Of a stretch of DNA of 64,000 nt, positions 1-20,014 are shown one piece after another. The notes beneath the pieces are model-generated. The model was not told the origin of the DNA and did not search any database. It worked only from the letters and a program-made list of their open reading frames with translations. The DNA lies in assembly GCA_028829895.1 (NCBI GenBank), contig CM054177.1, positions 42,240,664-42,304,663 on the forward strand, written 5' to 3'. This DNA comes from Sinotaia quadrata (taxonomy: Eukaryota; Mollusca; Gastropoda; Architaenioglossa; Viviparidae). The translations under genes and the position numbers were made by a program. The stretch's first letter is position 1. Every line of letters begins with the position of its first letter.

Positions 1-430
1 TGGTATGGACCATTTCGGAAAATTATGCATGCGGCTGACCTTTCGGGTCATTGAGGTCAGGTTATTTCCGGTTCACTTGCTTGACTCTTTGCGAAGACTA
101 CATTTAATGTTACACTGATGACGTCTCGACTTGTGACAAGTAATTACCATCGCACATGTTGTGTTCCTGATTGTGCTGTTGTAAGCTTCAATTTGTCCAA
201 CTTTATCATTCCATACACTTTCCAAGTGAGAAAACAATATTTAAAACTCAAGTTTGCAGCGACAAAAGCGCTCCCTTCATTTTATGTGATGGTTTACCTG
301 CATGTTAGTAAACAATTATTTTGTGGTTCATTTCGCTGAACCTTGGGAATATTAAATGGGTTTTTTATATAGTAAAGCACATTTTAAGAATTTAAATTTC
401 GTTTACAAATACATTGTATTCTGACCAATA

Positions 431-513
431 TAGATAGATAGATGGATGGATAGACAAAGAGAGAGAGAGAGAGATAAGTAGGTAGGTAGGTAGATAGATA
501 GATAGATAGATTA
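431..513. repeat. Compound microsatellite (GATA/GGAT/AG/TAGG)
   Basis: Tracts of GATA, GGAT, AG, GTAG and GATA units follow one another without a break. Simple sequence repeat, no coding potential. Confidence 0.9.
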
Positions 514-1156
514 TACTTTAGGTAATGATACTAGTTGCCGAGTAATAAATTGATAGGAATATAATTTCACTGCAATTACTAATAGTATTAGTGATTTTTA
601 TTACATACCATGCACACACATCCAATTAGCAGGTTTTCTCAATTATATATAGATGTGCATAAATAAATTATTCCTACTCAGAATTAAGTACAGTGTTAAC
701 GCTTATCTTATTATTTATAAATTATATACAACGACATCACAAAATTATCAAGACTTCTACCAATAGATGGAAAGGTAGAGTTATATTATTTACTAGTTCA
801 TTAATTTGGATTTATATTCTGGTATGGAGTGACCAGCATAACAGACTTCAAGTGGCGAGAATCCGCTGTTCTACTTAAAGGATTTTGCCATGAAGAAGTT
901 GGATTTCCACTCGGGTTTTGTGGAAAATGTATTTTTACCAAGCTATTCAGGCACGGTCGATTGTGGCTTATAATTCCGAGTGGATTAAAAGTCATTGATT
1001 ATTCAAGGGTACTGACACTTTTTCAGTGCCCACTCCCACGCCGGATGTGTTGAAAACAATATATCAGTTAACAGTGTAGGCCATCGTCACCCCATTGCTA
1101 AATAAAAATAGTAACCATACAAATTTAGAAAGTAACCACATGCTTTTGAAAACAAA

Positions 1157-1229
1157 TTAATAAGCCACGGTCTGCTAAACAGATTATTAAGCCAAGGTCT
1201 GCTAAACAGATTATTAAGCCAAGATCTAC
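1157..1229. repeat. 27-bp tandem repeat, about 2.7 copies
   Basis: The unit contains AAGCCAAGGTCTGCTAAACA and repeats head to tail inside the inverted-repeat structure at 815-2995. Confidence 0.8.
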
Positions 1230-2251
1230 TGACCTACAGAGAGAAAATTATTACAACATATTTTTAAACAAATTGACAAATAATATTTCCAAATAACTAA
1301 GATTGTACAATAAGACTTCATTTCTCACAATCTGTCAAACTGATCTTTCATTTCAGCAACTAGGAAGAATTTTTTTTTTTAAAGTTGAGACTGGCAAGTG
1401 ACAAAATTTCTGTATAATGCAATCCCCACTTCTCACAATCTGTAAGCTGGCCTTTTTGTATAAAACTGGCGAAAATAGTCAAATCGTATCCTTCACTTCA
1501 GTCCGGAAGTGCTCTTTTGCTGTTTATTTTAATGACCAATCACATCTGACGTTACGATGGCACTTAGAGAGTGTTGCTTTCATTGTCTGCGACGTATGGA
1601 GTTACAAATTAACACCGGAAGTAGCAAAAATTGGAAGCAATGGAACGTGCCACAATTATAGCCTTAAGCTCTCGTGCCAAGGAACAGCTAGAAAGTGCGT
1701 CGTAAAAGAAAAAAAGTTCGCGCACTTATTTATTAAGTTGTACCGTCGGAGAATGTTGACAGTTAACGATGGGATCTTAGCGTGGTGACAGTGATGTTCT
1801 CAGTAATAAGGGGTTAAACCTAGTACTATGACACTCCTTCGAGAAATGTCGTATTCGCTGTAAACTGATAAGATACATTGAAAGACTTGTCGTCAACGTG
1901 TAAAATAATTATGTACAACTATATGTCACATAGCGCTTTGTTCCTGTAGATATAATAAGACGTGTTCTATTGTATGAAGAACGTACCTGTTTATGTTTTT
2001 TTAAGCCGGTTTTTTACGTCAACTTGGTGCATGTTTTATGCTGCCTCCGTGAAGAATGGTGTGTATTTGGCAGTAAGTGAGCGAGCGGGCGAGTATGGAT
2101 GAGTGAGTGGATTTTATTGTAAACCAAAAAAACATTTTCTGAAAAGGAAAAAAAATGTAGCTTCAAGGAGAAACTTTATTAATTCTGAGTTGCTCGATAT
2201 TGTTGTTAATGCGTAAGGAATGTTTGTAATATACTTCGGCCGTGTATTAAA

Positions 2252-2415
2252 CCTCCTCTCATATCCAGGTATGTCAGGTATATGGTACATGCACTAATCT
2301 TCCTCTCACATCCGGGTATGTCAGGTATATGATACATGCACTGACCCTCCTCTCATACCCGGAATGGTCAGGTATATGACACATGCACTTACCCTCCACT
2401 CATATCCCAGTATGT
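2252..2415. repeat. 47-bp tandem repeat, about 3.5 copies
   Basis: CCTCTCATATCC-like starts occur at 2255, 2302 and 2349, giving a 47-bp period. Each copy contains GTCAGGTATATG and ACATGCACT. The fourth copy is degenerate. Confidence 0.8.
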
Positions 2416-3420
2416 TTACGGCATATGTAGGTAATTTTATAATCATTTATCACAGAACATACGTCATAGATATTCCAAGTTGAGTCCCATAGATATGCCC
2501 AAATTTAGTCCCCACCGACTTGACACATTCAATCCACTGAGTGTGAGATTGTTTTCATACTAGTGGCGACAAATTTGCATTCTTCTAGTGCAAGTCTGGA
2601 AGTAATAGTTCACATTTTTGCTGGTGCAGTATAATTGTTTTTCAATCTCCAGAAAAATTTTAAAAGAGAACTTATTCCGTAAATGTACGGCATAGTCTTT
2701 CTTCTGTACAGACTGGGTTATCTACCTTTCAAATCAAACTAGCTAGAGGATTGCTCTCGTGACGTCATCAGGGTCCAAACGGAATAAACTCATGCCAGTA
2801 CCCTTGAATAATCAATGACTTTTAATCCACTCGGAATTATAAGCCACAATCGACCGTGCCTGAATGGCTTGGTAAAAATAAATTTTCCACAAAACCCGAG
2901 TGGAAATCCAACTTCTTCATGGCAAAATCCTTTAAGTAGAACAGCGGATTCTCGCCACTTGAAGTTTGTTATGCTGGCCACTCCATACCAGAATAGAGAA
3001 GGAGGGAGAAAAAATAGCTTCCAACTTGAATCCATCAAAAATATATCCACCCGCTTTACAAAAATACTAGTGGAAAGACTTCGAAACGATGTTGAAATAT
3101 CGGTACTTTTATTGTCACTCACCTCAGAGCCTATGGTCAAGGACGAAGTCGTTGATTAGTTGTATCCATTTAATTAAATAACAGGCATTGTGGCATTTGT
3201 CAATAAGACACATGACAAAGATGCTCACTGAAAAATATCAAACCAGTTTGAACACATTACAGAAAATGAGTGCGGGGGAGTTGCTTGAAAAATATTTCAT
3301 TGAAATTTTGCCTTTTTTTTTTTTAGTTTGTCAAAAAGTTTGAAGACGACGCAAAACATAAGTTTATTTAGCCAGCTGTTGCTTTGGCAAACAAGTTACA
3401 GCATAAATATCTTATTTTCA

Positions 3421-4112
3421 CCCACAGACGGAGGGTGATTGAGGGTGTGCACCAAACTGGTGCGACCTTTTTACCCCCTTCCACCAGCCCTCCCGCCCTC
3501 CACCTCGAACACAATGTGATGCTGTGGGATTCCATTGGGGCACTCCCTATCAGAGGACGTCTGATGACGAAATGATCAACGCAAGTTCCAGTGGTGACGT
3601 AAAACTTCTACCGACCTCCAGCTCCTCTTATTCTCTCATTATTATAATGAGAGAATATAATATAATAATTATTATTAAAGCTCAAAGCACTTTACTATAA
3701 TTACACTTTATCTAAACCATTTAAACATATTTTTTTAAAATCCTGACGTTAATATAAGAAAACAAAATGAATTCCCGTGTAAGCAACTATAATGACAATA
3801 AATAACAAATAAATGGATATACAAAAAGAAACTGGCAAATGCAGTTTGAATAATGACAGAAGTGACTGATAATCTGACTGGTGAAAAAGATGTCTGGAAA
3901 GCACTCTTGATAGTTAGGTGGGGGATCGATAATATAATTAAAGTCACCACTGGAGCTTGCTTTGATCATTTCGTCATAATACGTTATCTGATCTGGAGTG
4001 CTCCACTGCCTCACCTTGTGTTCCGAGGTGGAGGACGGGAGGGCTGGAGGAAGGGGGTGAAATAGGACGCACCAATTCGGCGCACACCCTCAACTGCCCT
4101 CCGTCGGTGGGA
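3421..4112. repeat. Imperfect inverted repeat with about 180-bp arms
   Basis: Arm 3421-3600 matches the reverse complement of 3942-4112 at roughly 75-80% by eye. Shared landmarks are GACGGAGGG, TTGAGGGTGTGC, a C-rich CCAGCCCTCCCG tract and GACGAAATGATCAA. An AT-rich loop of about 340 bp separates the arms. This may be a MITE-like foldback element or an inverted duplication of a small genomic piece. In one frame both arms keep a similar peptide (DEMI-x-ASSSGD), so a duplicated exon fragment is also possible. Confidence 0.65.
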
Positions 4113-4560
4113 GCACTCTTGATAATGATTAGGAGCTGAAAATTGCCATGATCATGTTTTCATAATACCAGAGAAAAGGTTCACATATATATATATTTAC
4201 AAAATTACTTAGCGTCAGTTGACTGGGCATTAATTTATTTGACCTTTTGTGAGAGGGGAATCAAAGGGGAGAGCAGCCAGACTATTTGAAGTGGATGACT
4301 AATTATTTATTTATTTTTATGCTGGTAACCATGCTTATTCGATTGTGCTTTTCGTTGTTGCTGTTTATTAATTGTTATTGTTTTGTTTTGCTGCCGTGTA
4401 TTTTGTAATGGAAAAAATATTGTTTACTACTATTGCAGTAAACACTACAAAACAGATATACACAAATACATTTTCATACTGTTGAAGCTTTAATATTTTT
4501 TTAATTTTTAAATCTCACGATCATACCAACGAAACTAATCTTTCTGTTGTGTGAAATAAT

Positions 4561-4850
4561 TTTTCTTGTAAATGTCCTTAACTTTCCAGCTTCTAGCACG
4601 CAAAGATTTTAATGACTCTACAATACGTTCACAAAACTTGGCGATGTGTGAAATTTTTCTTGTAAATGTCAACTTTCCAGCCTCTTGCACGCAAGATTTT
4701 CATGACTTACATACAATACGTTCAGGAAACTTGACAATGCGTGAAATTTTTCTTGTAAATGTCAACTTTCCAACCTCTTGCAAGCAAAGACTTTAATGAT
4801 TTATGATCACGAAACTTGAAGATCTGTGAAACTTTTCTTGTAAATGCCCA
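4561..4850. repeat. About 93-bp tandem repeat, three to four copies
   Basis: The core TTTTCTTGTAAATGTC recurs near 4561, 4655, 4748 and 4833. It is followed each time by an AACTTTCCAGCCTCTTGCA-like stretch. The last copy is shorter and diverged. Confidence 0.75.
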
Positions 4851-5029
4851 TCTATGGTGAATGCCTCAGTAGCATTTTCATCCCTTTATAAATTGTCTCC
4901 ACTTCAAGAGCAGTACTCTAAATATCGTGTAACATTATGTTTCATATAAACAATGCTTCTTTTGTTAAGGTTTATGGCAGATAATCTTCCTAGCAATCAG
5001 TTTTCAAAAGACATGCTAAATTATCTCTC

Positions 5030-5870
5030 TTGATGACAGACGTGACATTAACTCCAAACAAGAAAATACACAAACCAGGAAAACCAGACACACTGACAGA
5101 AATCGAGGCTGCCTTTAAAGAATACTCAAGGGTGCTTGAGACTACTCCCTCTCTCACCCTTGTCAGGGCCAACAAGAACATCTACAGAGCCTCGAACAAC
5201 GGAAAAATCAACACAACAAAAGAAAAAGAAAAAAGACCGCTTCCCAGCATCAGCAGAGCCCAGAAAATCACAGAAGCAGCAGCTCAAGAACACCAAACAG
5301 ACGCAGACAAAAAAGAAAAAAACGACACATACCACCACCATCAACGACAACGTCAGTACAGAGAGCAACATTATCCGCAGTGGGGAATTTATCAACCACC
5401 CCATTGCGAGGACATGATACAGCTGATGCTGGACCACTTGTACTGGCCTCCTAATCCAGTCTACGCACGTCCCAACGGACACCTCCGGGGACAGTGACAA
5501 CTGCAACTACGACGAAAACAACACCAGTGAGAAGGGCGGGCGGGTTGAACATCCCGGGCGTGTGTACTCACTAGATATAGAACTGGTATGTTGCCAGCCT
5601 GGGCACAGTAAGATATCCCCACCCACCCTCTTCCCTCTAACACCGGGGACAACGACAACACCAATCACCATAGCAGTAGCCCACGGAAAACGGGCTACTA
5701 CATGCCTCTACTGGCCAGACATTAAGCGCCACGGACTCACCGGCCACCATTCATCATCGCAATTCTACAACTTTCTTGTCAACCACCCTCCATCTTCAAC
5801 TCTTTCAAAGCGGCATACCTCGTGCCAGGCAGCAAAATCGGCCTAGGCCGGATCATCATGAGACCTAGAA
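5030..5870 (+). other. A/C-rich block with open frames, origin unknown
   Basis: The + strand is unusually rich in A and C and visibly less AT-rich than the flanks. It carries a 155-codon frame (5030-5497) dominated by Lys, Gln, His and Thr, then a 94-codon frame (5562-5846) in a different phase. I see no conserved domain. The low-complexity composition means the frames may be open by chance. A decayed retroelement ORF or a fragment of a gene exon are the alternatives; nothing in the sequence decides between them. Confidence 0.3.
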
Positions 5871-7260
5871 AAATAACTTTCTGCATCTTACAGGTCAAGG
5901 GTGAATGAGGAACGTTGGCTAGGAGATTGTCCATTAAGAGATATTACAGTTTCGAAGAACATAAAAGGGGACAGAGATAGCTCCACAAAATGATGTCTCA
6001 ACGGTGGTTACAAAATGGCTCGTGCAGAGACCTTACTTATTATAGAATTTCAAAAAGTCACATCTGCGTTCACCTCGGCTGATTTGCTTCGCCCTTAATT
6101 CAGCCATGGGTGACATGTTATAATCTGAAACCAAAGCTATCTTCTAGGCTGCAAGGTAGGGTCATACCGCCTTTCCCCGAAATGGTTCTCATTTTAGAAC
6201 TAGAAATAATGTGAGAGTTGTCATTAATCGTACCAAACAGCAGTATACAAGAAGAGCTTTTGTAAGAGATGTATTGTTCTAAAAATGACGTCATTGGGTG
6301 GGGGTGGGGTGACGTTCGTCGTAAAACAATCTTCTCCTTGGCGGCCTTACGTGTACCTGTCGTCAGAGGAATGCAGTCTTCGCTCGTGAAAGGTGGTGCA
6401 CCTCCCCTTGTCGGCCCCTTGTCGGCCCCTTGTGGCGTTGTACAGGAATGCACTGAGAAATCATATTTGATAACCTATCATTGTCGTCCCGCCCGACTGC
6501 GCATTCAGGCTGCAAGGATTTGTGCAAGTGCAGCAATCACAAAAAGATCCCGTTCGCAATGCAGCCTCTTACTTCCGGGAAACGAAACCCCAGCGACATA
6601 GCTACAGCCCTGTGTCGCGGAGTACAGAGAGTTCAGAGAGTTCCCAGCCAACTTTCCTGCACCTCTCTTACTGGAATTGTCGGTGGATCATCGCTAGTGG
6701 TCACGTGTGGAAAAATTTAAAGACGCCATGATTACAATGTTCAAATTTCCCCGTCAGTGGTCCGTTCGAAATGCCAATGTAATAAATGTGTGCAACTGGG
6801 GCAGAGCTGCAGTGTGACGTATGATCGAGTGTGTCGGTCTAGACTGCGTCATTATGCGCGAACTCGACTTGACTGAAGTCAGCAAGAGCAGTGAGTTCTT
6901 GTCGTTTTGAATGGCATTTACGGTCTAACTGTGCGTCTACCGACAAACAATTAATACACCTCGTTCAAAAGAAATCATTACTGTCCCTGGCCTTTCATCT
7001 TCTCTGCCACCATTAGTTCTTGCCCCAGTTATCCTTCTCTCCCCCCTCCCCAACATCATCATGTCAGGCCGGCTGCTGTCAACCCCATGACAACTCCTAG
7101 TAGGGCAAACCACGTGGGACTTTCAATTAATCTTTGTTAAAGCCTTACGTAGTGAAAGTCACTTCAAGAGAAATCGCCATGTTTTATTTTGCTAGAATCA
7201 GCAGTCGTGCCACGTAACGGCTACAGCACGACAGCTTTGGAGTGCATATTTATATGACCA
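5871..7260. other. Intergenic stretch, no gene recognised
   Basis: Mixed-composition DNA with several ACGT-containing motifs (for example TGACGTCATT near 6287) and a small duplication of CTTGTCGGCCC near 6410-6430. The short open frames here are mutually overlapping on both strands and match nothing I know. The missing 5' exon and promoter of the downstream arrestin gene could lie in this stretch, but I could not locate them. Confidence 0.4.
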
Positions 7261-7263
7261 ATA

Positions 7264-7470
7264 AGTGACGTGCCATGTGTAGTGGTATTAGACCAGTTCT
7301 GACGTGACGTGCCATGTGTAGTGATATTAGACCAGTTCTGACGTGACGTGCCATGTGTAGTGATATTAGACAAGTTCTGACGTGACGTGCTATGTCTAGT
7401 GATATAGACAACTTCTGACGTGATATGCCATGTGTCTATTGATATTAGAACCATTTTGACATGACATGCT
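7264..7470. repeat. 39-bp tandem repeat, about five copies
   Basis: The unit begins GTGACGTGCCATGTGTAGTG and ends in TTAGACCAGTTCTGAC. The first three copies are near identical and the last two are diverged. Each unit carries a TGACGTG motif, which is CRE/E-box-like. Confidence 0.85.
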
Positions 7471-7538
7471 GCCTTATAAAACACTTCGGGAATGGCCTCG
7501 CGTTTTTGCTTTTAAGATATATATAAACATAATAAATA

Positions 7539-8107
7539 CAGGGTGACACAAAAAAACGGTCATCACCTAAACTTGAATAACTTTTGAAATAAATAATCAA
7601 CGGAGAGGAGTCGTCAGGGTTCTCCAGTGGTTCCAGCAGGATGGTGCCACCCCTCACACCTCAAATGAATCATTGGCATGGCTACAGCAGCGTTTCCCTG
7701 ACCGACTGATCAGCCACAGGAGTGACCCGGATTGGTCGCCGCATTCACCGGACTTGAACCCCCCAGATTTTTATCTCTGGGGATACCTTAAGGACAGGGT
7801 ATATGGCAACAATCCCCAGACTATCCCTGACCTGAAGGCAGCAATCACAGCAGCAATAAGAGTGATCCCAAGGAAGGAATGCGGGAGGGTCATCGAGAAT
7901 TTTGCCCGCCGGATCCAAATGTGCCTGCAGCGCCGGGGAGCTCATTTGGAGCACATTTTGGAGAGTTTTTGTTGTACAGACTTGAAACTTTGGAGATGTC
8001 TGCTACACAGGCTTGACCTAATGTAGTTAAAGTTTTGTGTCGATCTAAATAAAATTTTGGAAGTTATTCGTTTTTTGGTGATGACCGTTTTTTTTTGTGT
8101 CACCCTG
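7539..8107 (+). mobile_element. Internally deleted mariner/Tc1-superfamily transposon
   Basis: Terminal inverted repeats are clear. CAGGGTGACAC starts the left end at 7539, and its complement ends at 8107. The match runs through the CGGTCATCACC block and continues more weakly to about 50 bp. TA dinucleotides flank both ends (7537-7538 and 8108-8109), the TA target duplication typical of this superfamily. The interior keeps only the 3' part of a transposase gene. The N-terminal DNA-binding half and the first catalytic Asp are gone, so the 569-bp copy is non-autonomous. Confidence 0.9.
7608..8026 (+). pseudogene. Mariner-type transposase, C-terminal remnant
   Basis: The frame reads FQQDGATPHT, then SPDLNPPDFYLWG, the second and third catalytic Asp regions of a DDxD transposase. 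By my count 41 residues lie between the two Asp residues, suggesting a DD41D-type mariner relative rather than classic DD34D mariner or DD34E Tc1. The frame is open to the stop at 8024-8026. Without the N-terminal helix-turn-helix region and first Asp it cannot be active. It sits wholly inside the terminal inverted repeats of the element. Confidence 0.85.
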
Positions 8108-8510
8108 TACTTGTTAAGTGAACATGCATTTTAGTGCTGGCACTCATTTTTTTCATTGACTTAAATTAGCTGTATCACCCTCGATGTTACGTTCCACTAT
8201 ATCACAAGTAAACTTCTTTTTTTCCTTGACCTATTTTCTTAATATTTCATGCTGTGAGGATGCTAGGTAAGGTGGCTAAAAGTAAATCTGATCGTACAGG
8301 CGTGATTAATGTCACTGCTAATATTATATGATCATAAAGTGTATGAATTAAGTGTGGGGCAGGCAACATCACAGTCGGACAGTTGAGTGTCTGGTGAAAA
8401 ATATTGTTGCAGCATTGGTGTAGAGTTATATGTGTATGTGCGTGTGTGTATATCTGTAGGGCTCATGTGTATGCATATGCATATTTGTAGGTATATAAGT
8501 ATGCGTGTTT

Positions 8511-8608
<98 letters not shown>

Positions 8609-8642
8609 TGCATGCATGCATGCATGCGTGCGTGCGTGCGTA
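8511..8642. repeat. Compound microsatellite (TA)n(TG)n(GCAT)n(GCGT)n
   Basis: A short TA run is followed by about 80 bp of TG and then by GCAT/GCGT units. The Cys-Val or Thr-His open frames across it are artefacts of the dinucleotide repeat. Confidence 0.95.
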
Positions 8643-9107
8643 TGCTTGTGTGTATATCAGGTGAAAAAGAATGGCTAATATTTGTTTCATAATTAACACA
8701 TCATTGAAAAAAAAAGTCACATACCCTTATCTAAGCAAGCTTTTGCCTAATGGCAGTTTAGGTTCACTTTATAAGTCTAACACATTTAGACTCGTGTACA
8801 ACACTGTGTCCTTTTGACAGTATAGATTCACTTTACTCGTGTACAATACTCTTTCCTTTTAAGTAAGACTTATATCGCAAGTCGTCATAAATCACAGCAT
8901 TTTTTAAACAAAGAAAAAACCTGATTCGTTGTCAGTCTGCCTGTCGGTGACCCCAGTTGCATTTTACTTTCTTCGTTTCTCATTTTTATTCGGTTATTGT
9001 ACACTTATTGCTTCACATCTTTGACTTAAGCGCATACATGTTTGTCTAAAGCCTTCCGTTTGCGTGCTTGCATAGGTGCAGTTTTGCAGTATTTACATCG
9101 TATGACG

Positions 9108-9225
9108 GTTTAGACATCATGAGATACAAAAAGTGTAGGCTGGTTTGGACATCATGAGATACAAAAAGTGTAGGCTGGTTTAGACATCTTGAGATACAAA
9201 AAGTGTAGGCTGGTTTGGACATCTG
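9108..9225. repeat. 35-bp tandem repeat, about 3.3 copies
   Basis: The unit contains TGGTTTAGACATCATGAGAT followed by ACAAAAAGTGTAGGC. Copies differ by one or two bases. Confidence 0.9.
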
Positions 9226-9683
9226 GCTGGCTATGTTGAGGTTTATTTGGTTTGTGCTGAATAAATTACTGCGTTAAGATTTCTGATTTATAGGCTTACT
9301 TGGCTCAAAATTTTGTTTTTTCCTTTATTCCTTCAAGTCTTGTGTTTATCAAGGTATGAGTTATCATTTACTTCTGGTCTCTAAAGTGATGACCTCATCT
9401 GGTGGACGATACCTACACTCGTTAACACGTATCTCTCTCACTAAATCTTACAATCTCCACTACCACCACTACTATCCCCATCAATACTTTTGCTGAGACT
9501 TTTTTCTATTTATTAGAATCGGTTTAACTCAATCATTCTGAGGGTCATCAGAATAAACACAGAGTATTCGAATAGTAAGATAACACGAGTGAATAATGCA
9601 AAAATCATTATCAAATAAAAGTGTCCTAATTTAAACTCCTCAATGTTTAAATAAATGTCACATGAAAATATGTTATTTTAAAC

Positions 9684-9697
9684 GTGTGTGTGTGTGC

Positions 9698-9746
<49 letters not shown>
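9684..9746. repeat. (TG)n(AG)n microsatellite
   Basis: A short TG tract runs directly into about 45 bp of AG repeat. Confidence 0.95.
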
Positions 9747-9747
<1 letters not shown>

Positions 9748-9769
9748 ATGTGCTGTCCTAAACTACTTT

Positions 9770-10600
9770 TTAATGCAGAAATAAATGTCACGTACAAATA
9801 CGTTATCCTAAATTACTCTTAATGCAGAAATAAATGTCACATGAAGAAAGTTTTAATATATTGTAGAAATAAGCGTCTTTGTGCTAAGTATGCTAAAGTG
9901 TTCTGAATGCAGAAATAAATGTCAAATGTACGTGTGTTAATCTAAAGTGCTCTTAATGCAGAAATAAGTGTTCAGTGTAAATGTGCTATAATCTAAAGTG
10001 CTCTAATACAAAAATAAGTGTTATGTGTAAATGTGCTAATCTAAAGTGCTCTGAATGCAGAAATAAGTGTTCTATGTAAATGTGCTAATCTAAAGTGCTC
10101 TTAATACAGAAATAAGTGTTATGTGCAAATGTGCTAATCTAAAGTACTCTTAATACAGAAATAAGTGTTCTGTGTAAATGTGCTAATCTAAAGTGCTCTT
10201 AATACTGAAATAAATGCCTATGTAAGTTTACCTGTCTAAAGTACTCTTAATACAGAAATAAATGTATTTGTAAGTTAACCAATCTAAAGTACTCTCAATG
10301 TAGAAATAAATATCTATGTAAGTTTACCAGTCTAAAGTACTCTTAATACAGAAATAAATGTCTATGTTTACCAGTCTAAAGTGCTCTTAAATGTGTGTAA
10401 GTGTTCCTGTCTATAGCACTCTTTATATAGAAGTAAATGTCTATGTAAGTGTGCTCTTAATGCAGAAATCCAGAATTAATTAAATATCGTTATGTACGTG
10501 TGCTAGTCTAAAGTACTCTTAATGCAGGAATTAATATCGCATGTAAGTGTGCCAGTCTAAGTAATCTTTATTCAGAAGTAAATATCGTTTGTAAGTTTGC
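9770..10600. repeat. Large degenerate minisatellite, about 49-bp unit
   Basis: About sixteen diverged copies of a unit containing CTAAAGTGCTCTTAATGCAG and AAATAAGTGT cover the stretch just upstream of the first recognised arrestin exon. Each unit has a short pyrimidine-poor TTAATGCAG that weakly resembles a 3' splice site. The true acceptor at 10626 is not part of the array. Confidence 0.85.
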
Positions 10601-10626
10601 TAAATATTCATTATATGTACACCTAG

Positions 10627-12112
10627 GTATCCAACTAAGCTATCGCTGTGAGGCCCACGTTGATTTCGTTGACGATGGAAATGATGTGGAGGAAGAAGAT
10701 GTGATCGATGTTGACGTTACTGGTTTTCGAAAACATAAGAGGGATCATCGGCTAGGCTTTAGTTCGGTCATACCTAAACGGAAAACAGCCGTCGAAAGAT
10801 TTTTAGAAACAACAATTCTTTTGTGGGGTACAGGTGAGGACACTGTAATTTCTCTTGAACGTTGCTAAGCAAATGAATGCTTATACAGAGAAACATACAT
10901 TCCAACAGAGATATAGAATCACTCTTGAACGTTGCTAAACAAATGAATGCTTAAACAGAGAAACATACATTCCAACAGAGATATATAGAATCACTCTTGA
11001 ACGTTGCTAAACAAATGAATGCTTAAACAGAGAAACATACATTCCAACAGAGATATATAGAATCACTGGTGAGCGATTAATATATAGACGTGTATGCATA
11101 CTGACAAACAGAAAAGTGGTTGGTTGAATTTAACATAGATGGATGGATAGATAGATCTCACATTCAACACGTTGTTGGCGTAATTAAATGAAATGTGTCA
11201 TTCTGTTTGTCATTTGTTTCATATTATTTCTACTATCACTTCTTATTGTACATTGATGAGTGCAAATTTTCTCTAAACTGTTCTCCAAAGAGCCACATAC
11301 GTCTTATGGTGAGGTCATGCCGGCCGGTCACCATTGTCTAGCCTTTGACATCCGCGTGCCACAGAACTTGCCAGGGTCATTCGAAGGGCACTATGGCTTC
11401 GTTCGCCATTGGCTGGAGTGCGTGGTCGATAGACCGGAAGGCCACGACATGAAGACTTCAAGGGCGCTTTCCGTTATCTCAAACTGCGATTTGAACTTGG
11501 ATCCTTTTGCAATGGTGCGTTACAAAGGTGGTGAAGTGTGTTAGGTGGTAATGCTTAATGTTGCTAAGGCCCCGGGTGCCCTTGCAAGAGGTTTTGTTTG
11601 TCATAGTAGGGACATCTCCAGCTTTCTGAAATTTAAGATAGTTTAAATTTAAAGTTTTAGATAGTGCTGCAGTATTTTGGTGTCTTCTGTGTCAACCTCA
11701 CTACGATACGCGGCCGTGTATGTGTGATTGTGCAAATGTCATGGTCATTTCATTACCTCTATAACCTTTCCCTTTCCCCAAATGTCATGGTCATTTCATT
11801 ATCTCTATAACCTTTCCCTTTCCCCAAATGTCATGGTCATTTCATTGCCACTATAACTTTTCCCTTTCCCCAAATGTCATGGTCATTTAATTACCACTAT
11901 AACTTTTCCCTTTCCCCAAATGTCATCAAACATTTCATTACCACTATAGCTTTTCCCTTTCCTCAAATGCCAACAAACTTATTAAAGTGTGATGTATTTG
12001 TTGCTTCAAAGTATGTATTTAGTGTTGCATATATGCCGTTTTGTGTGATTCAAGGTTTCTTTCGCGCTTTAATTAAACATGCTTTTCGTTTACTTTTTAC
12101 CCCCATTCTGCA

Positions 12113-12191
<79 letters not shown>

Positions 12192-14080
12192 CGTCCTTCA
12201 TTCTTCAATTTGTGCATACATTGAAATTCAATCAGATTTCACCACACGAGTTTGCAAACACCTCCACTATAAACTGATATGCACGTAAACAACAACATTT
12301 AATGTATTTGTACAGAATGTATACATTATAATATATCTTTCTTGTCCCAAAATTATATTCTCGAGAAAATTTATAAACATTGCAAATGTCTTACAATTTT
12401 GCTTCCAGAAATCGTTACGTTACCAACAGGAGGTCACTTTATGTTGCGGCTGCATTAAGCCTGACCACTATGACGTCAGTTTCGAGTTGCCATATAGGGG
12501 CTATGTCCCCGGCGAGACAATGTTTCCTGACGTTAAAGTACGTAATTATACTCGCCACCGAATTCAGATATTTGTCAAATTGAAAATGGTGAGCATTGAT
12601 TTCTGTTTGTTTCTTTTTAATTATATATTTCTTTAATTACTATTGTCAATAGGGGTAAGTTTTCGTTTTATTCCTTAAGTTAAAGTTAATTATTCATATT
12701 TTCTGTTATGATATTCTTTTTCATGTTTGTTTCTTCACTATAGTAACAAGTCTAATTGGTTCTTAACCTATATATTTTCCAGTGTAGTAACAAGTCTAAT
12801 GTGTTCTTAACCTATATATTTTCCAAACCTCAACTAATAGAAGTCTAATTAGTTCTTAACCTTTATATTTTCCAGTTTAATGAAAGTCTAATTGGTTCTT
12901 AACCCTTATATTTTCTAGTTAAAAAGTCTAATTGGTTCTTAACCGATATATTTTCAGTGTAATAAAGTCTAATTGGTTCTTAAACTATATATATTTTTCA
13001 GTGTAATAAAGTCTAATTGGTTCTTAAACTATATATAATTTTCATTGTAATAAAAAAATAATAATAACAAAAGTCTTTAACTGATTCTTAAACTGCATAT
13101 TTTCCAATGTAATAAAAGTCTAATTTTTTCCTAAACTATATATTCTTCAGTGTAATTGTCTAATTGGTTCATAAACTATATATTCTTCAGTGTAATTGTC
13201 TAATTGGTTCATAAACTATATATTCTTAGCCTACTAACAATTCTATCTTGGTCTTAAAATGTATATTCTTTAGTGTACTAACGGGTCTCTTTTGTTTTTA
13301 ACTTTAAATTCTTCATTGTACTAATTGGTCTACCTCACCCTTAAAAACATTTTCTTTGGCTTACAACCTGTAAACTAGCCAGCGTTCTCTTCCTCCCCCG
13401 CTCTCTCTATCTCTCTTTGCCTCTCCACCCTTCCGGCTCCATGTGTGTTAGCCATCACTTTGTATATGCAGCCTTCTCTCAAAATTCAAATCAATTCAAA
13501 ATTTCTCTTGCTCTTCTTTGTTTTGTATAAACAAAGAAAGAGAGCTCCATATATCTTAATGTGACGTCACGCCGATCGAGAATGAAGAGTACTAAGGTGT
13601 CAGAGTGCCTGAAAATAACGACGTTAACATACTTTGCTTTACTGATGAACAATGAACTTGCGACTTAACCATTGTGTCTTTCTGATGAGAAATAAATTTG
13701 CATCTTACTATTATGTCTTTCTGGTGAACAATTAATTTGCATCCTAAACATTGTGTCTTTCTGATAAACAATGAACTTGCATCTTAACCATTGTGTCTTT
13801 TTTCAAGAGGGAAGTGCACTTCTTCAGAGTCGGTTAAGGCAGCCATATGTCCGAGGTGTTTTTAATTTTAATTTTGCAGATAACAACTTACAAAGCGAGG
13901 AATTCCAGAAAAACAACGATCAAAGTTATCGCAGAGGAAAAGAAAGTGGTTCACAAAACAGAAGTTTCAAAATGGGAGCCATCTTTACAAGTTCCAGCCC
14001 TTCCGCCTACAGGTCTTGGAGGCTGTAACATCATAGAAGTCCGGTTCTTTTTAGAGGTATATCACTCTCTCTCTCTCGCT

Positions 14081-14114
<34 letters not shown>

Positions 14115-15573
14115 CACACACACACGCACACACTTATTCACACATTCTCACACTCGCAATCTCGCAATTAATGTCAAACTTAGGAGAGAGAATGCTATAC
14201 TTACTACTGACCTAAATTCAAATTATTAATGCAAACCTCAACACACTTGTGAAATAATAATAATAATAATAATAAATTATTTGATTTAAATACACACGTG
14301 TCTTAAATTTAATTTGATTTATTCTCTTCTTCGTGTTGGCACTTTATTCCTTATTGTATCGACTGCTTGAAGGAAATTTGAGTAAACTATATCTTCTACA
14401 GTTGGAGCTAAAATCTCATGGGATAGGATGGCAAGGTCTGGCTTTCCAAGATGAAATACAGATAGGCACAATTCCTTTAAGTCACGTGGCCAATGTTAGG
14501 CAAGTGCCCCTCAAGCCAGTGCCGAGAGTGGCATCCCCGGCCTTGGCGCTTCTCCTCTGTCCGCCCCAGACACAGATTTCACGAGTCAAAACAATCAACG
14601 GAACACGAGTTCCTCTTATTCCTGCCATAGCTTCATCAGGTAAATCACTGTTCCTTTAATACCTGCCATAGCTTCATCAGGTAAATCACTGTTCCTTTAA
14701 TACCTGCCATAGCTTCATCAGGTAAATCACTGTTCCTTTAATACCTGCCATAGCTTCATCAGGTAAATCACTGTTCCTTTAATACCTGCCATAGCTTCAT
14801 CAGGTAAATCACTGTTCCTTTAATACCTGCCATAGCTTCATCAGGTAAATCACTGTTCCTTTAATACCTGCCATAGCTTCATCAGGTAAATCACTGTTCC
14901 TTTAATACCTGCCATAGCTTCATCAGGTAAATCACTGTTCCTTTAATACCTGCCATAGCTTCATCAGGTAAATCACTGTTCCTTTAATACCTGCCAGTAC
15001 TTCATCAGGTAAATCACTGTTTCTTTAATACCTGCCAGAAATTTATCAGGTATATAACTGTTCCTTTAAATATCTGTCAGGACTTCGTTGGGTAAGTCAG
15101 TTATTACTTGCCACATCTTGTATCATGCTCAAGTTAAGTCAATACTCCTCTAATACCTACGACAACGCTTCATGAATATATCTGTGTCCTCAAATTCCTG
15201 ACTAATTAAATATTCAAATAGGCCTATATGTTCTTTAAAATCTACAAGAAACTCATCAACTTTTCCTTTTTTTTAAATTTCATTCTAATTCTCCATAGGC
15301 TCCACGGGAGATGGCAGGTTAACAAGCGACACTGAATCTAGCGCGGCCGTCTCCGTGCCTAAACCGGCACTTCCTGTCTCCCGGCATGCAGCCAGCAACG
15401 ATCGAGAGCGGTCCACTTCCGTCTTCTCCGCCACCTCGCATTGGTCTTTCCATCAGAAAACCAACGGACCGCGTCTGTACCCGGGTCATTTGGCAAACAA
15501 GTTGTTTGGGAAGAAAGAGCACACGGCGAAGAAAAAATCTTTCAAGCCTTCTCTGCCCACTATCTACAACTGA
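10627..15573 (+). CDS. Alpha-arrestin (arrestin domain-containing protein), 5' end missing
   Basis: Alpha-arrestins are cytosolic adaptors that help ubiquitin ligases and trafficking factors act on membrane proteins. Six exons join in phase: 10627-10833, 11291-11514, 12409-12588, 13880-14056, 14402-14639, 15299-15573 (stop TGA). They encode about 432 residues. Exons 1-2 hold the Arrestin_N half: TILLWGTE across the first junction, then PAGHHCLAFDIRVPQNLPGS, SFEGHYGFVRHWLE and a basic-acidic DRPEG turn. Exons 3-5 hold the Arrestin_C half: CCGCIKPDHYDVSFELPYRG, GYVPGE, LPPTGLGGCNIIEV and IGTIPLS. Exon 1 carries an acidic insertion (VDDGNDVEEEDVIDVDV). The tail has no PPxY motif, unlike typical ARRDC proteins that bind NEDD4-family ligases. 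The N-terminal strand exon, roughly 40 residues, was not found. A polyadenylation signal AATAAA lies at 15936. The family call is firm; the subfamily is not resolved. Confidence 0.88.
10853..11066. repeat. 70-72-bp tandem repeat, three copies
   Basis: Copies start with CTTGAACGTTGCTAAACAAA at 10854, 10924 and 10996. The array lies in the arrestin intron directly after the donor at 10834. Confidence 0.9.
11734..11978. repeat. 46-bp tandem repeat, about five copies
   Basis: The unit is AAATGTCATGGTCATTTCAT followed by ACCTCTATAACCTTTCCCTT. Starts are at 11734, 11780, 11826, 11872 and about 11918, with decay toward the end. It lies within the second recognised arrestin intron. Confidence 0.9.
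12114..12190. repeat. (TG)n microsatellite, about 38 repeats
   Basis: Uninterrupted TG dinucleotides inside an arrestin intron. The Cys-Val open frames over it are repeat artefacts. Confidence 0.97.
12738..13335. repeat. About 43-bp minisatellite, roughly thirteen diverged copies
   Basis: The unit reads approximately AAGTCTAATTGGTTCTTAAA then CTATATATTTTCCAGTGTAA. Every good copy contains a TCTAAT (branch-point-like) followed by TATTTTCCAG or TATTCTTCAG (acceptor-like). It fills most of the intron between the arrestin exons ending at 12588 and starting at 13880. Confidence 0.85.
13636..13802. repeat. About 42-bp tandem repeat, four copies
   Basis: The unit contains TGTCTTTCTGATGAACAATG followed by AACTTGCATCTTAACCAT. 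It ends about 80 bp upstream of the arrestin exon at 13880. Confidence 0.85.
14074..14132. repeat. (CT)n(CA)n microsatellite
   Basis: A CT/TC stretch followed by CA repeats with occasional CG, starting about 15 bp after the arrestin donor at 14057. Confidence 0.95.
14620..15100 (+). repeat. 41-bp tandem repeat that duplicates the arrestin exon/intron junction
   Basis: The unit is CCTGCCATAGCTTCATCAGG continuing TAAATCACTGTTCCTTTAAT. The first copy straddles the real 5' splice site (exon ends 14639; intron GTAAAT). Nine further near-perfect copies put an identical CAG|GTAAAT donor at 14681, 14722, 14763, 14804, 14845, 14886, 14927, 14968 and 15009. Two decayed copies at 15050 and 15092 follow. 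Retaining any repeat in mRNA reads into a TAA at 14657-14659, so only the first donor keeps the last exon in frame. Confidence 0.92.
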
Positions 15574-16261
15574 TTTATACGGGTAAAAATACTTGACGCC
15601 TATACTTGCTCGTCATGGCGTCTGTTCCGCTTGCTGTTCGTCACGTCTACCCCCGTGTTTGCCGGTCAGGACGTCTGTCCATTTTGCAAACTGATGTCTA
15701 ATCCCATACAAACACTGCTTGCTGATGGCGTCTATTATTGTTAGTCATGACATTTTCGTTTTGCTGACTATGCTGCTTACCTCTTGTTGATGACTACTTG
15801 CTGGATATGACTGACTGAGACCTGCTGATGACGTCAAAGGTCATGACGATGAAGTTCACAGGTTGACGATCGTTCTACTTCCCCATATCCGTCGAGGTGT
15901 ATACCAATCAATTGCGGATGGATCCCGACTTTGAAAATAAATGGATAAGTCACAGTAATTTTACACGGCGCCAGATTAATTCGCGATTTTCACAACATCC
16001 AATAATCTCCAGTGATTTTTATAAACATACATATTATATGGATTCTTCATTGGCGGATTTTGACTGAAATGTAACAGCGGCTGAACATGACAAATCATAG
16101 TGTCACGGCGGCTGTACACATTAACAACTGAAGTAACCGTCAAGTTGTGAAGCGGCCGTACTGGGAATTTCGGCGACTGTAAGCCACGCATGCAGGACAT
16201 GGATTCGAAACCAGTCAGTAAGATTGATTGTTTCCCATCTTCATCTACTCCCTGTCTTGTG

Positions 16262-16455
16262 AATGCTACGCTTAGCGGCCATAGTGAGAAGTTCGGTGTC
16301 CACTTCGCAAACAGAGGTGTCATGAGTTCGAGACCAATTTTGACCGTTTGGGATTTTTCTCTCTCGATCCTCGCCCCTGAGTGATGAGCTTAGAGACTGA
16401 TTGTAAGCGCTTGGCACTCTTTCAAGAGTTAGCGCAATTAAATTATTATTTAAGG
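16262..16455 (+). mobile_element. tRNA-derived SINE
   Basis: A tRNA-like head (about 16262-16350) includes the anticodon-arm-like stretch CCACTTCGCAAACAGAGG and a B-box-like GAGTTCGAGACC. It is followed by a body with a CTCTCTCGATCCTCGCCCC stretch and a tail GATTGTAAGCGCTTGGCAC ending in AATTAAATTATTATTT. Head, body and AT-rich tail in this order are the normal SINE arrangement. The tail resembles SINE tails I associate with mollusc genomes. A second B-box-like GGATTCGAAACC just upstream (16200-16211) may belong to another decayed tRNA-like unit. Family name not assigned. Confidence 0.7.
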
Positions 16456-16781
16456 CGTCTTTTGAAAAGAACAAAATTGAAACCGGACTCAAGAGTCAGA
16501 CCACAGTTGTTAACTGTTTGCCATTCATATACTGAACAAACGAAATATGTATCTAACCTATTGGATTACTTCCAATATGAATCTGTAAACATCCCACCAC
16601 CCCTTTCAAAATAAAAGTAAATAACATTTAAAATAAATGTTTGTGATTATTTCTGTCTCAAGCTTTGCTGTTTCAAATTAAACTTTTTTTTGGTTGTTTT
16701 CTTGCCAACAAAACGCATTGTAATTATGATACTGGCGGGTCATTAGAGCGTTTCTTCTTTGAAATTTCAAAGCAATTATAA

Positions 16782-16997
16782 ACCAGTAAATACATCATGA
16801 AAAAACACATAACACAAACAGCAAATACATCGTGTAAGAACACATAACACAAACAGCAAATACATCGTGTAAGAACACATAACACAAACAGCAAATACAT
16901 CGTGTAAGAACACATAACACAAACAGCAAATACATCGTTTAAAGAACACATAACACAAACAGCAAATACATCGCGTAAGAACACATAACACAAACAT
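16782..16997. repeat. 35-bp tandem repeat, six copies
   Basis: The unit is CAGCAAATACATCGTGTAAG followed by AACACATAACACAAA. The six copies vary slightly. The open frames reading CVMCS/FAVCV on the minus strand are repeat artefacts. Confidence 0.95.
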
Positions 16998-17135
16998 TTG
17001 CTGGAAAGGAGTGGGGACGAACAGCAGATTTTATTTTTTAAAGGAAATAAATAACAGATCTTCAACGTTAATACTGTTTTGTAGATGAAAAATGTGTTCA
17101 TACTGTCTAGTCGTGACGACAAAGTTAAAGATATA

Positions 17136-17310
17136 ATTTAATTCCAGTGTAGGACTAGGATAGAAACAGTTTAATTCCAGTGTAGGACTAGGATAGAAAC
17201 ACTTTAATTCCAGTGTAGGACTCTGATACAGGATAGATAAGTTTAATTCAATTTCAGGACTCTGATACAGAAAGATACCGTTTAATTCAAGTGCAGGACT
17301 TTGTTACAGG
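17136..17310. repeat. 33-35-bp tandem repeat, five copies
   Basis: The unit is about TTTAATTCCAGTGTAGGACT followed by AGGATAGAAACAG. Later copies change to CTCTGATACAGG. Confidence 0.85.
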
Positions 17311-17439
17311 ATAAACGGGGAGTAGCTGTTGGCTAATGAATACAACTTCGGATGCGTCGAGTGTAAACGTCGAGAAGAAATGTACACACGGCTGGACAAG
17401 GTTCTTTAGTCTCGACATTTAGAAATGAGAGAGAGAGAC

Positions 17440-17670
17440 AGACAGACAGAATGCAAAAACAGAGAGACGAGACCTTGAATACAAAAAACAGACACGAGAC
17501 GTGAATGAAAAACGGAGACGAATGCAAAAATAGACAAAACCTTGAATGCAAAAACAAAGGTGATACCTTGAATGCAAAACCGAGACAAGACCTTAAATGC
17601 CAAACATAGAGACGAGACCTTGAATGCCAAGCAGAGGCGGGTCCTTGAATGCAAAAACAGGCAAGACCTA
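17440..17670. repeat. Degenerate 25-30-bp purine-rich tandem repeat
   Basis: Copies of GAGACGAGACCTTGAATGCA with variable spacing. The repeated phenylalanine-rich minus-strand frames are by-products. Confidence 0.7.
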
Positions 17671-20014
17671 GTGAACGAGTAGACAGTTCAGAGTGTGAAT
17701 GAGAGGAAGAATGGATTTGTACTAGGGACTCTGACTCCGAGCAGATTAAAGATTTTGTACTAGATAATTTAGCGAACTATATAAGAGAGCTGTTTTAGTC
17801 TTGACAGCAATAATGAACACTGTCATTGCTGACTGTCTGCCCATATTAATGTGGCTATCTTAAAGTCAGTCAGACAAGCATTGTGACTGAATAACTATAC
17901 GAATTTAATCGTTTGCTCTCAAAGACTCCAAAAACAAATATTTAAAAGAGATGTTTTTCATCGCGTCTACCTGATGACGCGGATTTTTTCTCTCCTGACT
18001 CTGCTTATATGTCTAATGGTATCAATAGTTACGTAACATATGACATCAGCATGTTTTGTTTTTAGCTTTCAGTTCATTGGGTTTTTTTTAAACTCATTCA
18101 TTGTGGCTTATGTTTTTTTAAGCATTGCTCTAAGAGATTGTCTCCATATGTCTGCCATCTTTTTTTTTTTTCCAATAAAAAGTACAAATACAACAGCGCG
18201 GCAGTCCAGTTGATAGAGAGATTAGTGCCGGTGGATAGACAATAAAGTCACATCTAAATACTATGGAGGTTGTAAAGACAGACAACTCTAGGACTACAGA
18301 GGACAGGAAATACTGGTGAAAGCGAAAGCGGTATGCGCTGGCAACTTAAGTTCTAGCAGTGAAGTACAGTACGCCGACCATAACACTGAAACGGGGTAAG
18401 ATGGCACGAGGATTGATTATTTTGATTCACAACGAAAATTTGTTTGCTCGATTCAACAAATCAAACAAAACTAGCTTCACGATTAACATATAATTTTTTT
18501 AAACTTCAAACTGATGATTGAATTACCACAATATCTCCCAAAACTGCTGGATGATTTATCCACATAACTCTGAATTTCTTGAGTACAGCTCCAAAAGCAT
18601 TTGTGTTGCCGGTTCGATCTACTTTCATAATTAATCATCCCCTGACAAGTTTCGGCAAAATATTTCTATGGCATTAGAATTTAGTCCCCGCCTCCTGCAA
18701 AATTGTGTAGATCTGGCATTCAGTAATATTTTTTTTTAGGACCCCAGATGCCATGTCCAAGTGACTATGAAACCAACAAGTTAACATGTTATGTGTTATA
18801 GTCTGTCACCAGTATTTATTTATTTACTTACTATCCTGGCTGCATGTATCAGGGAGCTCAGAATATCTTCTAGAACAGACAGGGGGCACGAGCTGTCTTC
18901 TAGAACTATCACTCTTCTATTCTACATTATATAATGTTCTTCTTTCTAACATATATGGCCAGCTGCCAGGTGTGTTTAGGGTTTAGCCTAAAAGTTACAG
19001 ACAGGTTCGGGTGGTGGAGAATGAACATCTTGCCCTCTCCCAGCAAAACATCATATCAATCACAGATTGATATTTTTAAATTAATTTTTCACTACTTTAC
19101 ATTAGAAATTGGGTGTCTTAATGTCATATTTCGTTCTAAATTTATTCAGTCTCTGATTTTGTCTTACTGTATGGTCCCTGTATTCTTAATCAAACTAATA
19201 TGAAAATTTCTCAGTTTCCACAGGTATGTCATAATGTTGCCTTTTGAGATTTATTATGTAGGCATTTAAGAACCTAAAGAAACACTACTTATTGACCTGT
19301 AGGAACCTTTTCTAAAAATGCATGCATATACAAACACACAAACTGATGTTAACAATAATCACATTATTTGAAAGCAGAGGTTTGGCTTTCATCCCATTGG
19401 AAAGAAAGAAAAACAGAACCATCCAATTGATTGCTAATTGTCACATTATTTGAATATACTGGCTCTGGATTTCATCCCAGTGGGAGTTTAAAAACTGAAA
19501 AGAATGTAAGAAAAAAAGAAGACTCTAACAACAAAAAAAAGATACCTATTTCAAGTTTTCCAGCAAGATAGATATCTTTTAGTCTCAAAGACGAGTTTGA
19601 ATATAACAGTTGAGTGTGAAATGTAATGTGTCAAGTATCTAGTCAAATGTTGGAAAACTTACTGTGAAAAAATATTAAATATAAAAAATGTATAAAACGT
19701 ATATAAAAAGTACTCATACACGTTGTTTTAATTGATACAGATCAGTGGAAAATGGAGACAAGACCACTGTTCACCAACAGAGTAGTAAAAATCTTCCAAA
19801 AGATATCCTGGTGATTAACTACAACACAGCAGCACTTTGCACAGAGAATGCTAATAAAATATGAATGGAACTAAAAGCATTAAGTCAATCTCCAGTGATT
19901 AAAAACTATCATTGGCCAATATTCCAAGGGAAGTAATACTGACTACCATAAACAGCATACATACAAGAACACTTTAAAATAATTTTCTTCAGAAATTCTA
20001 TTTAAAATAAAATA
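17671..20014. other. Intergenic region upstream of the F-box gene
   Basis: AT-rich, with no recognisable exon. From about 18.5 kb on the sequence becomes much more AT-rich and poorer in tandem arrays than the first 18 kb. A possible 3' splice site (TTTTCTTCAG, ending at 19992) lies 22 bp before the F-box start codon, so a 5' UTR intron is conceivable. Confidence 0.5.

Follow-up and report, generated by a model that had tools for sequence, protein, structure and literature searches.

A minisatellite carrying a 5' splice site at the end of an arrestin-domain exon of Sinotaia quadrata, probably an incidental array and one of several in the genome

The repeat unit of the minisatellite in the human gene IFI6 (6-16, G1P3) is short and in frame, and its alternative donors give in-frame isoforms. 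This minisatellite bears multiple splice donors (Turri, Cuin and Porter, 1995, NAR 23:1854, as cited in PMC4526556, PMC2572611 and PMC2915984) and, in the account given in PMC4526556, two downstream repeat units are used as splice donors and the gene produces three mRNA species. Internal tandem repeats at exon-intron boundaries within human segmental duplications are also described in PMC2812944 as able to activate splice sites and to give rise to alternative transcripts and new introns. In the potato RdRp gene, an intron was gained via a tandem duplication across an intron-exon boundary, according to PMC4974935.

Here we describe a 41-bp minisatellite from the snail Sinotaia quadrata, found in a stretch of 64,000 nucleotides (hereafter the window, from whose first letter positions are counted). 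As in IFI6, the array spans an exon-intron boundary (14609-15069, with the exon ending at 14639) and provides a consensus donor in each intact unit, but it differs from the human gene, as far as the cited accounts describe it, by its unit of 41 bp, by the stop met when any of the 11 later donors is used and by the putative nature of later-donor use. The repeats reported in PMC2812944 are exonic and form new introns, whereas the snail copies are intronic and repeat an existing donor. Potato RdRp and the snail array have in common a tandem duplication that carries splice signals, although the potato case involves a single acceptor-side duplication leading to a new intron, while many donor-side copies enlarge the intron in the snail. 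The minisatellite in intron 6 of hTERT, a 38-bp VNTR, comes close in period, and splicing is affected by the number of its copies (PMC3948165). Given the IFI6 precedent, as cited, the donor minisatellite as such is already known; the snail array is a real donor minisatellite, probably incidental, and one of several in its genome.

The minisatellite straddles the 3' end of an arrestin-domain exon and the start of the next intron. Its core (14609..15069, forward strand) was delimited by TRF with a period of 41, 11.2 copies and a 96% match, and looser TRF penalties extend the array to 14609-15200 (14.4 copies, 85% match). Each unit reads GTTCCTTTAATACCTGCCATAGCTTCATCAG followed by GTAAATCACT, that is 31 exonic and 10 intronic nt, and the array begins within the exon at 14402-14639, whose last 31 nt make up the exonic part of its first unit; the preliminary description, which had counted only the last 20 exonic nt, is thus to be corrected to 31, starting at 14609. 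A unit-by-unit comparison revealed that units 2-9 (14650-14977) are eight letter-identical copies, and that three differences from this intronic unit are found in unit 1, at the exon end, three in unit 10, all within the exonic part, and seven in unit 11. The statement that every copy carries the same exonic flank consequently holds among units 2-9 and fails for the tenth. Chance or loose resemblance was ruled out, period and identity being far beyond random expectation. A dispersed repeat was ruled out as well, as an exon-plus-unit query against the snail's own genome matched this locus only, in a search that leaves simple repeats aside and scores no more than the best candidates.

Decayed units of the same array follow at 15070..15200 (forward strand), where a wraparound alignment was equalled by 0 of 120 dinucleotide shuffles and where the looser TRF run ends (15200). 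When aligned to the unit, the longer stretches 15060-15298 and 15101-15298 both outscored all 120 dinucleotide shuffles under both scorings. The last 100 nt (15198-15298) are not clearly unit-like, with 11 of 120 shuffles as good under each scoring, and the acceptor stretch 15263-15305 aligned no better than shuffles (33 and 41 of 120 as good under the two scorings). Copies of the array are thus fresh near the exon and decayed farther off, and the consensus donor is gone from the decayed units beyond 15100.

Six exons of the gene were placed on the forward strand (10627-10833, 11291-11514, 12409-12588, 13880-14056, 14402-14639 and 15299-15573), and the N-terminal exons were not found upstream. 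The first exon found (10627..10833) is an open frame with an acceptor and the donor CAG/GTGAGG (the slash marks the splice site); it has no Pfam match alone and aligns with GIRLSYRCEAHVDF of the homologues. The end of the Arrestin_N domain is encoded by 11291..11514 (PF00339, E=1.9e-14), the start of the Arrestin_C domain by 12409..12588, placed by homologue alignment and by a match to PF02752 that lies below the cut-off when the exon is taken alone (E=0.09), and the Arrestin_C domain by 13880..14056, whose PF02752 match (E=7.6e-6, 26.7 bits) falls just under the cut-off of 27.7 and is accompanied by homologue alignment. The penultimate exon (14402..14639), with the open frame LELKSHGIGWQG...VPLIPAIASSG, was placed by homologue alignment and has no Pfam match alone; a PDB search with its frame gave no match. 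The last coding exon (15299..15573), which holds 90 whole residues of tail and a TGA stop, was placed by its frame and homologue alignment and has no Pfam match either.

Once joined, the 433-residue translation retrieved eight proteins at an E of 0.001 or less, all of which carry Arrestin_N and Arrestin_C and two of which are named arrestin domain-containing. The five best homologues, from Batillaria, Babylonia, Littorina, Nucella and Pomacea, all Caenogastropoda, show 52-57% identity. Judged from these domain matches and alignments, the gene is an arrestin-domain gene of the alpha-arrestin (ARRDC) type. Splicing of donor 1 to 15299 would create the junction IASSGSTGDGRLTSD, near to RASSSSTGDGRLTSD in Batillaria and RASSSSTGEGRFTSD in Babylonia and Nucella, and the alignment across this junction reads IASSGSTGDGRLTSDTES in the snail, RASSSSTGDGRLTSDAES in Batillaria and RASSSSTGEGRFTSDADS in Babylonia and Nucella; Littorina is without three residues at this place and Pomacea is different. 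The exon pair 14402-14639 / 15299-15573 proposed in the preliminary description is therefore upheld, as its spliced product can be aligned across the junction to the proteins of Batillaria, Babylonia and Nucella. All five homologues also align with the tail that the last exon encodes, in which TSD and SHWSF are invariant in the six aligned sequences. Because the homologue alignment spans both junction and tail, we infer from protein conservation that donor 1 and the acceptor at 15299 are the authentic pair and that the tail lost with any other donor is a conserved one.

Donor 1 (GTAAAT, 14640..14645, forward strand), the likely authentic 5' splice site, is the sole one of 12 donors that yields the conserved tail with 15299. 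It is followed on the same strand by the decoy donors 2-10 (14681..15014), each CAG/GTAAAT, with their G at 14681, 14722, 14763, 14804, 14845, 14886, 14927, 14968 and 15009. The ten equal CAG/GTAAAT donors reported every 41 bp were confirmed in count and in coordinates (G at 14640 to 15009), and the U1 duplex energy is identical for donors 1-10 at -8.3 kcal/mol. Two variants lie farther downstream on the forward strand, donor 11 (CAG/GTATAT, 15050..15055), with a U1 duplex energy of -7.2, and donor 12 (TGG/GTAAGT, 15092..15097), which at -10.0 is the strongest of the twelve.

Translation of the frame places a TAA at 14657..14659 (forward strand), reached via any later donor or in a retained intron. 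When the exon, the extension and the last exon were translated for the 12 donors, the donor 1 product, counted from the first residue of the penultimate exon, had a length of 170 residues, whereas donors 2-12 each gave 85 residues ending in GKSLFL at TAA 14657-14659, even where the extension is divisible by 3. It was thus rightly noted that only the first donor keeps the frame, and this TAA truncates the products of all 11 later donors, which are left without the 90 tail residues. In mammals, stops lying farther than 50-55 nt upstream of a junction make mRNAs targets of decay. With donor 2 the stop is 21 nt upstream of the junction, and with donors 3-12 the distance is 62 to 432 nt; by this mammalian rule the latter would be decay targets while donor 2 would escape. 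Structural masking of the decoys was rejected, computed opening probabilities being low and similar (0.0014 to 0.0062) across donors 1-10.

The three differences between the exon and the intronic unit are all synonymous (CTT to TTA, both Leu, and ATT to ATA, both Ile), an outcome whose probability is 0.022 to 0.024 for three random substitutions. Protein selection therefore probably continued to act on the exonic unit during the formation of the array. On the intronic side, donor 9-mers of the window array show 11 mismatches in 126 positions (8.7%) vs 41 in 464 (8.8%) for the rest of the unit, so that donors of this array, a single one that offers low power, are neither preserved nor purged. 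Four exon-end arrays taken together gave 18/357 for donors vs 80/1161 for the rest (p=0.27), and twelve other arrays gave 44/965 vs 284/3978 (p=0.003), donors being better kept in these arrays, which were chosen for exact donors; this decay comparison was made without L052 and L070 (no usable row) and without L040-L042, L047, L048 and L056-L069.

Minisatellites make up 9.8% of the window and 19.8% of its first 18 kb, and account for 12.1% of ten 3-kb stretches taken at round coordinates, a small sample of the genome. Window positions 1-18000 contain 19 minisatellite clusters, at about twice the mean coverage of the window. When these 19 clusters were placed at random over the first 18 kb, at least one of 11 known gene boundaries was struck in 88% of trials, and one of the 11 is actually struck by a minisatellite. 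Because such an overlap is expected by chance, the position of the array on an exon boundary needs no special cause. The same part of the window also contains, at 7577-8026, an open frame WFQQDGATPHTSN...DLNPPDFYLWGYLKD whose only Pfam match is DUF6129 (E=0.16) and which looks like a remnant of a mariner-type transposase.

The snail's own genome (984 Mb in 26 contigs) was searched for three CAGGTAAGT separated by gaps of 15-45, and this pattern occurred at 137+138 places vs 89+91 for a reversed control, with overlaps counted and uncorrected for the commonness of either 9-mer; the excess could reflect arrays that favour donors. Among the matches listed, on contigs C1, C2 and part of C3, at least 34 distinct arrays hold three or more CAGGTAAGT, and 34 arrays were inspected, about 6 kb of sequence being taken for 20 of them and 0.4-0.6 kb for the other 14. 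From 26 of them, 37 open frames of at least 20 residues ending at the first exact donor were scanned against Pfam, the other eight arrays having no such frame. Three frames matched below 0.01, to EGF_CA (L062, with the longer exon in L070), NIDO (L064, and L071) and, in L039, the end of a homeodomain; weaker matches for L042 (E=0.044) and L056 (E=0.034) were attributed to chance.

Likely exon ends start four of the 34 listed arrays, in different genes and with family support for three. At L070:364-1157 (C3, about 900.8-901.6 kb), a 35-bp unit in 22.7 copies appears to have been seeded by the last 27 nt of an exon and its donor. In this longer form the exon encodes a complete EGF_CA (E=1.3e-8, profile positions 2-43 of 43), and CAGGTAAGT is kept in 7 of about 22.7 units, GT being lost in most later ones; decoys may have been purged from this array. 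At L071:666-1015, a donor-carrying minisatellite with a 42-bp unit lies directly 3' of a nidogen-like (NIDO) exon (E=9e-5, below the curated cut-off), and its first unit includes 12 or 23 exonic nt depending on the TRF setting. Similarly, a donor-carrying minisatellite with a 34-bp unit (L039:2967-3278) lies directly 3' of a likely homeodomain exon (Pfam E=0.0022, below cut-off), for which a PDB search returned homeobox chains from E=0.0078 and which is presumably Vsx-like; this array begins at AG/GTAAGC and takes in 2 exonic nt only. The fourth array (L036:2991-3252, minus strand; C1, about 317.2-317.4 kb), with a 32-bp unit in 8.2 copies of 100% match, starts at a likely 59-nt exon VPLDLGDKQGNLLLVDTAGQ recognised by its acceptor and open frame. 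The L036 exon gave neither a Pfam family match nor a PDB match, and its DTAGQ, we assume, resembles a small-GTPase motif. As in the window array, the exon end itself forms the first unit in L036 (22 nt) and L070 (27 nt). Collisions between exon ends and minisatellites are thus expected in this genome.

We consider it likely that the array arose on an exon end as an incidental minisatellite, in which donor 1 is dominant and the later donors are tolerated decoys. Its starting material would have been the final 31 nt of the exon and the first 10 nt of the intron of the arrestin-domain gene, and it would have grown on the intron side via ordinary repeat turnover, the exonic unit remaining under protein selection and donor 1 serving as the chief functional donor. 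Those farther downstream would be decoys of presumably low use, and mRNAs spliced at them, whose added sequence contains the stop, would for the most part be degraded or would yield a tail-less protein. Several points count against this reading. Donor 1 is not set apart by the 9-nt sites or by the 29 nt common to units 1-9, in classic work on duplicated donors the site nearest to the acceptor is often preferred, and donor 12 forms the strongest U1 duplex. The excess of three-copy matches over the reversed control and the better-kept donors of the twelve other arrays, chosen for exact donors, also weigh in the other direction. A splice-based dosage switch, as previously put forward together with a tuning element, would let the length of the array set the share of later donors and hence how much full-length product is made relative to tail-less or degraded forms. 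The ten identical donors with a single productive choice would suit such a switch, as would a stable truncated form from donor 2, whose stop precedes the junction by 21 nt, next to decay targets from donors 3-12 under the mammalian rule; yet the donors of the window array are not spared from decay and similar arrays adjoin exons of other kinds. These two observations and the expected position of the array leave the switch or tuning element without support, and we regard the switch as very unlikely.

The origin of the intron itself may be questioned, as about 561 of its 659 nt (about 85%) are recognisable copies of its own donor region. Tandem duplication of the exon end may have given rise to it or supplied nearly all of its sequence, with an acceptor derived from a decayed unit, a scenario compatible with an incidental minisatellite. 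Visual comparison suggests a likeness between the acceptor CTCCATAG/GCTCC and TGCCATAG/CTTC of the unit, but neither 15198-15298 (11/120) nor the acceptor stretch 15263-15305 (33 and 41/120) goes clearly beyond shuffles, and we hold this origin to be quite unlikely. Each intact unit (14672-14680 and its repeats) also holds CCATAG/CTTCATCAG/GTAAAT, an acceptor-like and donor-like pair that could delimit a 9-nt in-frame microexon. Splicing within the array might accordingly heal it, either by restoring CAG/GT through a zero-length exon, in a manner resembling recursive splicing, or by inserting the 9-nt CTTCATCAG, which encodes Ala-Ser-Ser and keeps the frame. The pyrimidine share before the ATAG (0.71) and the CAG (0.65) of the unit compares with 0.59 to 0.76 for the six acceptors of the gene, although pyrimidine counts are weak evidence, only a 32-nt intron would separate microexons of adjacent units and a second Ala-Ser-Ser at the junction is present in none of the five homologues; such healing appears highly improbable. 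Finally, eight letter-identical units might point to a copy number produced by the assembly, an explanation that is scarcely credible considering that the exonic and distal units have their own differences and that three of the 26 contigs hold donor-carrying arrays at no fewer than 34 places.

More broadly, the genome may repeatedly make minisatellites of exon ends and their 5' splice sites, so that many genes would present a series of identical donors with a single productive one, the first, under either a strong first-donor rule or a tuning of unproductive splicing by array length in many genes. We judge this general reading unlikely; if tuning by array length were true, it would represent a heritable source of expression variation. 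Studies of how the spliceosome selects one of several identical donors have, to our knowledge, relied mostly on engineered duplications. The snail array offers a natural test, with ten donors sharing the same 9 nt (nine of them sharing 29 nt), a single productive one and several comparable loci in the same genome. If donor 1 is always chosen, this would support exon definition or a 5'-to-3' commitment over site strength; if it is not, the length of the array would act as a natural rheostat of expression.
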